A DNA stretch of 64,000 nucleotides from Candidatus Nitrosotenuis chungbukensis. GTDB lineage: Archaea > Thermoproteota > Nitrososphaeria > Nitrososphaerales > Nitrosopumilaceae. A program made the translations under genes and the position numbers. Positions 1,240 through 49,508 of this stretch are shown here, one piece after another. The number at the start of each line of letters is the position of its first letter. The first letter of the stretch is position 1. The stretch spans positions 1,396-65,395 of the forward strand of contig NZ_AVSQ01000020.1 of assembly GCF_000685395.1 (NCBI RefSeq), written 5' to 3'. The notes beneath the pieces are model-generated. The model searched no databases and was not told the DNA's origin. It worked only from the letters and a program-made list of their open reading frames with translations.

Positions 1240-3018
1240 ATGTTAAAGTTTCAAAATAAAGTTATTCTAGTTACCGGCAGCGGAACCGGAATAGGTCAGA
1301 CAGTTGCCAAACTGTTTGCGGAAAACGGGGCAAGCATAATAATTTTAGGCAGGCGAAAGGAGCCTCTTGAAGAGACAAAAAAGATACTTGACGAGATAAT
1401 TGCCAGAGTAAACAGCAATGCAAAGGTCTGGCTGTTCCCAGGTGTCGACGTGAGCGATGAGGCAGGCGTTTCACAGATGTACGAGGAATTGAAAAAGGCA
1501 AACGTGATAGTCGACATTGTGATAAACAATGCAGGTGTTTCAGGGCCAGTAACCTGTTTTTCAAATGCGCCGCTAGAAGAATTCAAAAGTGCAGTAGCAA
1601 TCCACCTGACTGGCACCTTCTGGACGTCATCTCAGGCACTAAAAGTAATGAAGCCAGGTGGAAAAATAATTACTATTTCAACGTTCTTCACAGAGGAAAG
1701 GCCGTTTGAGCAAAGACCATACAGATTCCGAAGTCCCTACACTGCGGCGCAGGGTGCAAAAAATAGGCTTGTAGAGGCAATGTCATGGGAACTAACCGAC
1801 AAAGGAATAGTCTCAATTGCGACAAACCCAGGACCTGTCCACTCAGACAGAATTTACAAAACGGTTTATCCAAAAGCGGCCGCAGAATTTTTGCGAGTCA
1901 GCGGCTTTGAGGATCTCAGTCCGTCAGAAGTCGACGCTGCCAACAAGGAGATTGTCGGACTGCTTGGCGAAAGCGAGCAGACGGTAAAAGACGGCATCAA
2001 AAAAGCTGCACAAATAGTTGCAAAGGCAAAAAACGGAGATGCCGAAAAAATTTCCCAGACGCTGACAAGACAGTTATCAAAGATACAGGAAATCGCAGAA
2101 AAAGTACAAAAGAACACTTCGTTTATGATTGCAGACAGGCAGTTCCTGTCGCAGACACAGGTAGCTCAAACAGTCATCGCTTTGGCAGACGATGACATTG
2201 CAAAAACGCTAAACGGCAAAGTAATTCCAGGCGACAGAGTGTTCTATCCAGTAAAACCACATATTGCATCAGACGCCCCAATGGTTCATCAGCCAGACTT
2301 TACTTCACAGGTGTTTGTCTTTACCATAGACGCTACTGACAAGTCAGATGCGGACAGAGTATTGTTTTTGGGCCAGCATGTGGAGAAAAACGGCGGCAAG
2401 GCAGTCTGCTTTATTTCAGAAAACACACCAAAAGAATACCAAGATCAAATCAGCGCAAAGTTCCACTCGCATGTTGTGAATCTAAAAAAGCCCGAAGAGA
2501 TGCAAAGGTGGCTAAACGCGGCAAAAAACATGGGCAAAGCATCCACCATAATCCACATCACGGGCAAAGTCCCGCAAAATCTCAAGATAATGGAATCGTC
2601 AAGAAAGGACTGGGACAACCTGGTTGACAAGTTCATAAACACGCCTGCTACGGTACTGCAATCCATGCTGGAGTTGTTTGTTCCAGGAGGCAGCAAAGAT
2701 CCAAGGCTATACAAGAGCGGATCTGGAACTGCGGTGATAATTGGCCCAGACTTGCCCACAGGACCAAAGGTGTCAGGTGCAGACAGGGCCCGAGTCGAAG
2801 TGTTCCGAGGCGCACTCAGACCATTCACTACGACAATAAACCAAGAGTTTAGCGACGTGTTAAAATCAAAAATCAGGTCATTTTTGGTACTGCCCGGAAG
2901 CATCGAGGGGAAAGAATCAAGCAATGAAAAAATCGCACAGGCGCTAAACTATTTTGTCACAGATTCTGCAAGAAATTCATCCGAAGTAACGTTTTGTATA
3001 GATGAGACAAGGGAATAA
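1240..3018 (+). CDS. two-module short-chain dehydrogenase/reductase, malonyl-CoA reductase-like
   Basis: 592 residues with an N-terminal SDR module (TGSGTGIG at 12-19, NNAG at 96-99, Ser147, Tyr167), a helical linker (about 240-310) and a second, degenerate Rossmann module (about 340-590). This order, with the motifs PGVDVSDEA after the first half-fold, GPVHSDRI after the active site and LRPFTTTI near the C-terminus, recalls the C-terminal half of the Chloroflexus bifunctional malonyl-CoA reductase, the half that reduces malonyl-CoA to malonic semialdehyde. The resemblance is judged from memory, not alignment. Position 171, where SDRs have Lys in YxxxK, is Gln; a Lys sits at 174. The gene overlaps the MaoC-like gene by 1 nt. 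SDR membership is firm; substrate is inference. Confidence 0.8.
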   Translation: MLKFQNKVILVTGSGTGIGQTVAKLFAENGASIIILGRRKEPLEETKKILDEIIARVNSNAKVWLFPGVDVSDEAGVSQMYEELKKANVIVDIVINNAGVSGPVTCFSNAPLEEFKSAVAIHLTGTFWTSSQALKVMKPGGKIITISTFFTEERPFEQRPYRFRSPYTAAQGAKNRLVEAMSWELTDKGIVSIATNPGPVHSDRIYKTVYPKAAAEFLRVSGFEDLSPSEVDAANKEIVGLLGESEQTVKDGIKKAAQIVAKAKNGDAEKISQTLTRQLSKIQEIAEKVQKNTSFMIADRQFLSQTQVAQTVIALADDDIAKTLNGKVIPGDRVFYPVKPHIASDAPMVHQPDFTSQVFVFTIDATDKSDADRVLFLGQHVEKNGGKAVCFISENTPKEYQDQISAKFHSHVVNLKKPEEMQRWLNAAKNMGKASTIIHITGKVPQNLKIMESSRKDWDNLVDKFINTPATVLQSMLELFVPGGSKDPRLYKSGSGTAVIIGPDLPTGPKVSGADRARVEVFRGALRPFTTTINQEFSDVLKSKIRSFLVLPGSIEGKESSNEKIAQALNYFVTDSARNSSEVTFCIDETRE

Positions 3019-3464
3019 TGAAGAAATTTGCAGACCTCAAGGTAGGGGAGGAATTCCAGTCCACATGTACATTTTCAAAAAAGGAACTGGAAACGTATCT
3101 TTCATTTTCAAGAATCAAAAACACGATCTTTGACGATGATGAATATAGCACCATAGTGTCAGGTCGTGCAATCATCGCAAGGATGGAGGGCGAGTTCACC
3201 AGACTGAGCCAGATTTACGGCAACATGATACTGCTGTACGGAATGGATGGGGATGCAAGCTGGGAAAACAGAAACACGCGATTTCTCAAACCCCTGCACA
3301 TAGAGGAGATACTGAAGATAAAGTTCACAATATCGGACAAAAAGGACATAGACGAAGACTTTGGCATGATAACAGTAGACTTTGAGGGAAAGAAAGAAAA
3401 CGGGGACGTTGTCGTGATATCAAAGAAAAACCTGTACAGAATCAAAAAAGAGCCGCCGAGATAA
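3018..3464 (+). CDS. MaoC-like hot-dog-fold protein
   Basis: A 148-residue protein opening with FADLKVGEEF, the usual N-terminal motif of MaoC-type dehydratases, and ending in a beta-rich half (ILKIKFTISDK, GMITVDFEGKKENGDVVVISKKNLYRI) typical of hot-dog folds. The R-hydratase signature D-x(4)-H is not clearly present (VSGRAIIARMEGEF occupies the usual site), so it may be a non-catalytic or divergent member. The start ATG overlaps the stop of the SDR gene (TAATG), implying translational coupling and a shared pathway, for example handling of 3-hydroxyacyl-CoA intermediates. The exact reaction is unknown. Confidence 0.65.
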   Translation: MKKFADLKVGEEFQSTCTFSKKELETYLSFSRIKNTIFDDDEYSTIVSGRAIIARMEGEFTRLSQIYGNMILLYGMDGDASWENRNTRFLKPLHIEEILKIKFTISDKKDIDEDFGMITVDFEGKKENGDVVVISKKNLYRIKKEPPR

Positions 3465-3704: not shown

Positions 3705-4457
3705 TTATGACTCAATTGCGTCAAGGAACAGTTTGATTGCGGCGGCAAGCAATACCACACAGATCAGAATTCGGATGTTGTTTTCCTTGAGATCGACAGA
3801 TATTCTTGCACCGATTATTCCCCCAGCAAATGCTCCAATGCCAAGTAGTAAGGCATACGTAAAATCAGAGTGGCCAAGCAGCGAGTGCGCAATCATCCCA
3901 GATGCCGAGGAAAACATCAGTATTAGCTGAGATGTGGCAGTTGCATGTTTTACCGAAATCCCGATTCCAAGTATCATAAGCGGAACAAAGACAATTCCCC
4001 CGCCAATTCCAAAAAAGCTAGACAGTATTCCAGCAAAGAAGCTTATCCCAGAGGAAAACACGAGCATCTTTACAGTCATGTTTGCAGATTTTGATTCCAA
4101 GTTTCTTTTCAAAAAAAGATACAGACATGAGGCAACCAGTACTATTCCAAATAGTATTTTGAACGTTGAAGGCGACGCCTCAGAGGATATGAATGCCCCC
4201 AGAATTGTCCCAGGAACAGACATCAGCCCAAGTGTGATGCCCAGTTTGTACTCGATTCTTTTTTGCTTGGCATACGATACAGAAGACGCCACTGAATTGC
4301 TAAACGCGGCAAAAAGGCTACTGCTTGAAGTAACAGTGTGAGAAAATCCAAGAATTGTCATTACTGGTACAACTATTATCCCGCCTCCAAGGCCAATTAT
4401 AGAGCCCAGAATCCCGGCCACAAAGCCAAGCGGGATTAGCCACAGATTTTCAAACAT
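3705..4457 (-). CDS. TauE/SafE (TSUP) family membrane transporter
   Basis: 250 residues, strongly hydrophobic, with about eight membrane segments in two similar halves, each opening with the Gly-rich family signature: GFVAGILGSIIGLGGGIIVVP near residue 12 and FAGILSSFFGIGGGIVFVP near residue 140. TSUP proteins move sulfite, sulfoacetate or other small organosulfur anions; the substrate here cannot be read from sequence. Length is normal for the family. It is transcribed alone, divergent from nothing obvious and upstream of a kinase gene on the same strand end. Confidence 0.85.
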   Translation of the reverse strand: MFENLWLIPLGFVAGILGSIIGLGGGIIVVPVMTILGFSHTVTSSSSLFAAFSNSVASSVSYAKQKRIEYKLGITLGLMSVPGTILGAFISSEASPSTFKILFGIVLVASCLYLFLKRNLESKSANMTVKMLVFSSGISFFAGILSSFFGIGGGIVFVPLMILGIGISVKHATATSQLILMFSSASGMIAHSLLGHSDFTYALLLGIGAFAGGIIGARISVDLKENNIRILICVVLLAAAIKLFLDAIES

Positions 4458-48545: not shown

Positions 48546-49508
48546 TTGAATACACCACAAAATATGCACACAGTAAAAATTCCAAAAATTATTCAGTTTG
48601 GCAAAGACGCATTATCAGAAGCAGAATATCCAAAAAACGCACTCGTGATTACAACTGCCCCTCCGCCAATATCATCAAAATGGTTGGCAAAAATGGGAAT
48701 TCAGGATTACATGTTGTACGACAAGGTTGAGCCAGAACCGTCAATTGAGACTGTAAACCAGGTCATCTCAGAATACAAGGCAAAGAATCCGTCTTGCATA
48801 ATTGGGCTGGGCGGCGGAAGCTCACTCGATGTTGCAAAATATTCGGCAGCTGAAATGAAACTTGAGAAAACACTCATCCCGACAACATTTGGAACGGGTG
48901 CGGAAATGACCACATATTGCGTTCTAAAGTTTGACGGAAAGAAAAAGCTCTTGCGAGAGGACAGGTTCCTTGCAGACAGAGCGATAGTTGACGCATACTT
49001 TATGGAGGGAACTCCAGAACAAATTGTCAAAAATTCCGTTTGCGACGCATGTGCACAGGCAACTGAAGGGTACGACAGCAAGCTTGGAAACGAGTTCACA
49101 CGAACGATGTGCAAGCAGGCCTTCGAGGTTTTGTACGACGCAATAATCAACAACAAGCCAGAAAACTATCCGTATGGCTCAATGCTATCTGGAATAGGAT
49201 TTGGTAATTGCTCCACGACGCTAGGCCATGCTTTGTCATACGTCTTTTCAAATGAGGGCGTTGCTCACGGCTATTCCCTTTCGTCATGCACCACAGTAGC
49301 ACACAAGTTCAACAAGTCAATCTTTTACGAGCAATTCAAAGAGGTAATTGAAAAGCTAAAGTTTGACAGAATGTCCCTAAAGGCGCCACTTGACCAGGCA
49401 GCAGACACGGTCATGACAGACAAGGGCCATTTGGATCCAAACCCAAGACCGGTAACAAAGCAAGATGTCATCCAGTGTCTAAAGGACATCGTCGAAGGAA
49501 GACTCTAG
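48546..49508 (+). CDS. iron-type alcohol dehydrogenase, malonic semialdehyde reductase of the 3HP/4HB cycle
   Basis: 320 residues (or 314 from ATG 48564): GLGGGSSLDVAKYSA nucleotide site, TTFGTGAEMT, and His ligands in GYSLSSCTTVAHKF and GHALSYVF. The sequence matches, from memory, the Nitrosopumilus malonic semialdehyde reductase (Nmar_1110) characterised by Otte and co-workers, which reduces malonic semialdehyde to 3-hydroxypropionate with NADPH. The SDR at 1240 would produce that semialdehyde if the malonyl-CoA reductase idea is right. Confidence 0.85.
   Translation: MNTPQNMHTVKIPKIIQFGKDALSEAEYPKNALVITTAPPPISSKWLAKMGIQDYMLYDKVEPEPSIETVNQVISEYKAKNPSCIIGLGGGSSLDVAKYSAAEMKLEKTLIPTTFGTGAEMTTYCVLKFDGKKKLLREDRFLADRAIVDAYFMEGTPEQIVKNSVCDACAQATEGYDSKLGNEFTRTMCKQAFEVLYDAIINNKPENYPYGSMLSGIGFGNCSTTLGHALSYVFSNEGVAHGYSLSSCTTVAHKFNKSIFYEQFKEVIEKLKFDRMSLKAPLDQAADTVMTDKGHLDPNPRPVTKQDVIQCLKDIVEGRL

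Follow-up and report, generated by a model that had tools for sequence, protein, structure and literature searches.

A two-module short-chain dehydrogenase of ammonia-oxidizing archaea as a candidate malonyl-CoA reductase

The window, i.e. the whole stretch of 64,000 nucleotides that was analysed, encodes a two-module short-chain dehydrogenase/reductase (SDR) which probably serves as NADPH-dependent malonyl-CoA reductase in the thaumarchaeal 3-hydroxypropionate/4-hydroxybutyrate cycle, the route by which ammonia-oxidizing archaea fix carbon. The protein stands alone and appears to be related to the C-terminal half of the bacterial bifunctional malonyl-CoA reductase (MCR; its halves are called MCR-N and MCR-C), a relationship that is largely supported. 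The computed evidence comprises a specific homology to MCR, a conserved YxxRxxY motif, a Thr/Tyr pair, Arg204 and an occurrence confined to ammonia oxidizers; the main doubts about this sequence-based reading are a change in the catalytic triad and two CoA-contacting arginines for which the alignment shows no conservation. A candidate malonyl-CoA reductase akin to the C half of the Chloroflexus enzyme had already been proposed in the original prediction, and this proposal is upheld by the matches to MCR and by the universal presence of the gene in ammonia oxidizers, with the activity itself being a prediction. For N. maritimus, the genes encoding malonyl-CoA, acryloyl-CoA and succinyl-CoA reductase are stated to be unidentified and the corresponding activities were measured in extracts (PMC6038301, PMC4510362, PMC6964070). 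In Nitrosocaldus, several SDRs with ~30% identity to Caur_2614 were considered as candidates for malonic semialdehyde reductase and not for malonyl-CoA reductase (PMC5797428). A prior assignment of the SDR gene was not found in the open-access papers searched. Since the gene is present in every ammonia oxidizer tested and encodes the active-site motif of the bacterial MCR, the step becomes directly testable by assay. If the assignment is true, the step derives from a Chloroflexus-type enzyme lineage and not from the crenarchaeal one, and the SDR is a marker gene for the cycle.

The window's genome (1.76-Mb, 98% complete) carries archaeal AmoA and, therefore, the source organism is an ammonia-oxidizing archaeon. 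The SDR gene and the elements of the encoded protein are located as follows:

1240..3018, + strand: two-module SDR, candidate malonyl-CoA reductase (MCR-C-like), ATG start, 592 aa
1273..1296, + strand: TGSGTGIG dinucleotide-binding motif (T12-G19), aligning with TGGSAGIG of MCR-C
1678..1683, + strand: S147-T148; T148 is invariant and aligns at the position of the catalytic Ser731 of MCR SDR3 and of Thr165 of SDR1
1720..1740, + strand: Y161-x-x-R164-x-x-Y167, counterpart of the YXXRXXY motif by which MCR binds malonate, without variation in 37/37 archaeal sequences
1750..1761, + strand: Q171, at the position of the usual catalytic Lys, and K174 (+7), both invariant in 37/37
1849..1851, + strand: R204 of PGPVHSDR, equivalent to Arg785 of the Roseiflexus MCR, invariant across archaeal and MCR-C sequences
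1846..2217, + strand: helical insert (residues 203-326), helices predicted in both AF2 models at low confidence
2254..3015, + strand: second, degenerate SDR-like module (residues 339-592), based on the profile match of the C half to the N half and on secondary structure
2815..2838, + strand: LRPFTTTI block (residues 526-533), aligning with LHAFTATI of MCR-C SDR4

A classical SDR (Pfam adh_short, 1e-35) was found over residues 7-203, and no family was recognised by Pfam in the C half. Profile comparison with hhalign matched the C half to the protein's own N half (95% probability, E 2.6e-8), and the protein is therefore built of two SDR modules in tandem, one good and one degenerate, which bears out the two-module layout that had been predicted. 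In the archaeal alignment all positions of TGSGTGIG are invariant save S14, and R38/R39 after strand 2, whose alignment partner is R616 of MCR-C, would suit NADPH as cofactor. The motifs that had been quoted as recalling MCR-C do match it (PGVDVSDEA/PGCDVSSEA, GPVHSDRI/GPVEGDRL and LRPFTTTI/LHAFTATI), and L526, T530, T532 and E536 are invariant in a joint alignment of archaeal and MCR-C sequences.

The best sequence matches in the PDB were the full-length bifunctional MCRs 8hi4 (E 1.5e-36) and 8hjw (3.6e-33), with a score that sums two SDR copies. At the level of single domains, a profile built from 27 archaeal sequences scored ~88 bits with MCR-C, 91 with 4iuy and ~88 with glucose dehydrogenases. 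Since these scores fail to part SDR3 from the best ordinary SDRs, sharper profile-profile tests were made, in which 37 archaeal proteins with 44-98% identity to the SDR of the window were compared with MCR halves encoded by genes from Chloroflexus, Roseiflexus and other bacteria. The archaeal profile aligned nearly over its full length with MCR-C (score 194, E 1.8e-24) and more weakly with MCR-N (score 161, E 1.3e-20), and the N module alone scored highest with SDR3 (191), followed by SDR1 (159) and ordinary SDRs (144). The second module alone gave no significant match to SDR4, a module that this method does not identify as an SDR. MCR-C was the best match to the archaeal profile in seven of eight MCR-bearing bacterial genomes, each with 12-34 SDR-type matches, and the second best in the eighth; the identity of the archaeal SDR to MCR-C is only ~20%. 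AF2 models were of low confidence, with a mean pLDDT of 50 from two archaeal rows and of 55 after addition of MCR-C rows. The top Foldseek matches were all MCRs (24 for the model with MCR-C rows, 23 for the one with archaeal rows only), single SDRs came later in E-value, and with the archaeal-only model C halves of MCR ranked first. Because the models are poor and Foldseek makes use of sequence, the fold searches count as supporting evidence and no more, and no structural claim is made for single residues. In a tree of the N module the archaeal family was joined to the MCR halves (SH-aLRT 98; 92 with long rows removed), and AU tests on such trees neither ordered the archaeal family, SDR1 and SDR3 nor excluded a grouping with ordinary SDRs. 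An unrelated SDR group as best structural match had been named beforehand as an outcome that would speak against the assignment; by structure and by profile, the closest matches are MCRs. A specific relationship of the archaeal SDR to MCR, with the thioester-reducing C half above the N half, is thus largely supported.

Like the C half of MCR (SDR3-ED-SDR4; Chloroflexus, Roseiflexus and Porphyrobacter; PDB 8hi5, 8a30, 8i6z and 6k8s), the archaeal protein has a catalytic first and a degenerate second SDR module as well as a helical insert, and both have YxxRxxY, Tyr749, Arg785, the NADPH motif and FxxE[KR] before the motif in common. The insert is predicted to lie at the same position as the 'extra domain' of MCR-C, but to be shorter, and the second module resembles the non-catalytic SDR2 and SDR4 of the MCR halves. 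Unlike MCR-C, which is one half of a ~1220-aa protein, the archaeal SDR stands alone with its 592 aa, and with only two modules it is not a bifunctional MCR of the K14468 type, which has ~1220 aa and four SDR domains and catalyses both reductions. MCR-N, the malonic semialdehyde reductase, shares the tandem SDR arrangement, YxxRxxY and a Thr at the Ser position, but it gave a lower score in every profile comparison, is six residues shorter before the motif and has K at +4 and Leu at +7, unlike the archaeal SDR (Q and K, respectively).

Homologues of the SDR, full-length or cut by contig ends, were found in 41 of 61 relatives, namely in all 39 genomes with archaeal AmoA (PF12942, used as marker for ammonia oxidizers; PF02461 for the bacterial-type AMO matched nothing, controls included) and in two AmoA-less drafts of the window's genus. 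Among the 20 relatives without the SDR, two are incomplete drafts of the window's genus and the other 18 belong to 13 families of the order in which AmoA is absent. A phylum-wide sample showed the SDR in 13/13 members of the window's family and, at E 1e-40, in 0/78 genomes outside this family. The 0.8-Mb genome of one ammonia oxidizer (G020) retains the SDR, and a scan of viral contigs gave no further homologues. Absence of the gene from autotrophic relatives, the second outcome that had been named against the assignment, was not observed; the gene is universal in the AmoA-containing relatives. 4-Hydroxybutyryl-CoA dehydratase (PF11794) was found in all ammonia oxidizers save one incomplete draft, but also in some non-oxidizers without the SDR, and is therefore a weaker marker than AmoA. 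The relatives counted are not independent and a restriction to ammonia oxidizers is common to many of their core genes, so that the distribution alone is weak evidence; together with the relationship to MCR it is strong evidence.

In the Roseiflexus MCR, malonate is bound by the motif YXXRXXY (Tyr743, Arg746 and Tyr749), catalysis involves Ser731, Tyr749 and Lys753, a role is reported for Ser731 of SDR3 and Thr165 of SDR1, and Arg785, Arg799 and Arg1164 make further substrate/CoA contacts; Lys753 is essential, since its mutation abolishes the activity (PMC10470521). YxxRxxY was found in none of 62 ordinary SDRs, a set gathered by similarity to MCR-C. Arg785 of Roseiflexus, the counterpart of R204, is Arg773 in Chloroflexus (12-residue offset). 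Arg799 in the extra domain and Arg1164 in SDR4 fall opposite A213 and D539 in stretches of insecure alignment, and other conserved basic residues (K212, R219, R523 and R527) lie nearby. As to the Ser/Thr-Tyr-Lys triad, T148 and Y167 are present and the Lys753 position is occupied by Gln171. This Gln had been pointed out in the original prediction and is real, but the invariant K174 three residues further on had been overlooked: Y-x3-Q-x2-K in 37/37 archaeal sequences stands against Y-x3-K-x2-Q in 14/14 MCR-C sequences, and this reciprocal swap softens the concern. In ordinary SDRs the +7 position is taken almost only by hydrophobic residues. The catalytic Lys seems to be relocated by one helical turn, not lost, and despite the incomplete triad the archaeal protein may still function in the manner of the C half of MCR. 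In the proposed reaction, T148/Y167 would hold the thioester carbonyl, to which NADPH would deliver a hydride, the malonyl carboxylate would be bound by Y161 and R164, and K174, one helical turn past the usual site, would replace the catalytic Lys which holds the nicotinamide ribose. CoA would then leave, and malonic semialdehyde would pass to an Fe-containing alcohol dehydrogenase (Fe-ADH), for which a gene is present in the window:

48546..49508, + strand: Fe-containing alcohol dehydrogenase, probable malonic semialdehyde reductase (Pfam Fe-ADH 3.6e-26)

A malonic semialdehyde reductase had been predicted at this position, and the Fe-ADH found there is of the kind reported for Nmar_1110, which was assigned as malonic semialdehyde reductase (PMC4510362); by its family, the same function is probable for the protein of the window. 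Outside the window's family, the Fe-ADH also occurs in one further family. No close relative was found in two other ammonia-oxidizing families that have the SDR (G037, G038, G053 and G054), so that another enzyme must do the malonic semialdehyde step there, which agrees with the report that Nitrosocaldus is without the known malonic semialdehyde reductase (PMC5797428).

Two other gene families were rejected as source of the malonyl-CoA reductase, ASADH paralogues because the two ASADH-family proteins of ammonia oxidizers are shared with most non-oxidizers, and ALDH because it is missing from 4 of 10 ammonia oxidizers tested. The crenarchaeal malonyl/succinyl-CoA reductase (Metallosphaera, ASADH family) catalyses the same step of the archaeal 3HP/4HB cycle, but its fold family is unrelated to the archaeal SDR, and the ammonia oxidizers are without an extra ASADH-family paralogue. 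In Metallosphaera, one enzyme reduces both malonyl-CoA and succinyl-CoA and, by analogy, the SDR may also reduce succinyl-CoA. It is conceivable, though rather doubtful, that one stand-alone SDR serves as malonyl-CoA and succinyl-CoA reductase, that it was recruited independently of the crenarchaeal ASADH type and that the relocated Lys (Y-x3-Q-x2-K) favours thioester over aldehyde reduction. It is quite unlikely that the SDR is an MCR-like thioester reductase with succinyl-CoA (step 10) and not malonyl-CoA as main substrate. The succinyl-CoA reductase is also listed as unidentified (PMC6038301, PMC4510362) and the same dicarboxylic thioester chemistry and the same occurrence would be expected of it, but the homologous enzymes and the YxxRxxY motif act on malonyl-CoA (PMC10470521), and the same organisms would be left without a malonyl-CoA reductase.

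Very little probability is given to the SDR being the missing acryloyl-CoA reductase of the same cycle, i.e. an enoyl-thioester reductase. The Tyr-x6-Lys spacing is known from SDR enoyl reductases, and the invariant Y167-x6-K174 recalls this spacing of the FabI/FabL type; these enzymes have a single module, a different cofactor motif in FabI and no YxxRxxY, whereas the archaeal family has the classical TGxxxGIG cofactor motif with NNAG. Moreover, the carboxylate-binding YxxRxxY would be without a role on acryloyl-CoA, and two-module MCRs, not enoyl reductases, lead every search, even though the gene for acryloyl-CoA reductase, too, is listed as unidentified (PMC6038301).

The candidate malonyl-CoA reductase gene has the following neighbours in the window:

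3018..3464, + strand: MaoC-like hot-dog protein, 148 aa, with a 1-nt overlap with the SDR gene (junction TAATG)
1-923: SbtA-type bicarbonate transporter (Sbt_1, cut by the window edge) and P-II-like protein, upstream of the SDR
3705-4457, - strand: TauE/SafE-type membrane protein

The similarity of the 148-aa protein to MaoC is slight yet recognisable (PDB 1q6w, E 3e-4; NCBIfam PRK08190, E 8e-4). No invariant His was found among 17 sequences of the MaoC-like protein, which thus lacks the catalytic Asp/His of MaoC and is unlikely to be a hydratase. Its gene follows the SDR gene in Nitrosopumilus and the majority of the Nitrosopumilaceae. Several genera of this family have a truncated copy or none, and in other ammonia-oxidizing families the gene was not found beside that of the SDR; about one third of the ammonia oxidizers are without it. 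The coupling of the SDR to a MaoC-like protein, as originally proposed, is therefore common in Nitrosopumilaceae but does not extend to the other ammonia oxidizers. The MaoC-like partner is an accessory at most and cannot be required for the step in general; binding of acyl-CoA or stabilisation of the SDR is a possible role. In one member of another ammonia-oxidizing family, a distant MaoC-like copy with an in-frame TAA lies at a site remote from the SDR gene (G043:C1:2194320-2194784).

The gene pair also bears on a similarly improbable reading, according to which the SDR is a ketoacyl-/hydroxyacyl-CoA SDR of polyhydroxyalkanoate or lipid-like metabolism with the MaoC-like protein as hydratase. 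phaEC is present in most mesophilic ammonia oxidizers (PMC5797428) and FabG-like NCBIfam models match the SDR, but their scores are far below the cut-offs, several lineages are without the MaoC-like protein, which has no invariant His, the SDR has lost the Lys at +4, and its YxxRxxY sets it apart from ordinary SDRs. The slimmest chance is left to a catalytically dead or regulatory protein descended from MCR, as the Gln at the usual Lys position and the inactivity of the Roseiflexus Lys753 mutant (PMC10470521) would suggest, but the Lys appears relocated and the other SDR3 active-site residues compared (Thr, YxxRxxY and Arg204) are invariant across the 37 archaeal sequences in spite of identities to the window's protein from 44 to 98%.

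A bicarbonate transporter next to the SDR had been noted as well. This is true in the window, but among the loci examined the transporter and the P-II gene adjoin the SDR gene only in the window's genome and in one near relative (G009), so that the transporter is a local neighbour only. The pair of transporter and P-II protein recalls the cyanobacterial SbtA-SbtB. Upstream of the SDR gene, a conserved order of a DNA ligase-like gene, a ~220-aa gene, a ~190-aa gene and a divergent small gene was seen at the loci L122, L123, L124, L127, L129 and L133, the names being given from a look at the sequence only; this order is apparently the ancestral context, before insertion of the transporter pair. 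The TauE/SafE-type gene is convergent to the SDR gene in most lineages of ammonia oxidizers, including families without the MaoC-like gene.
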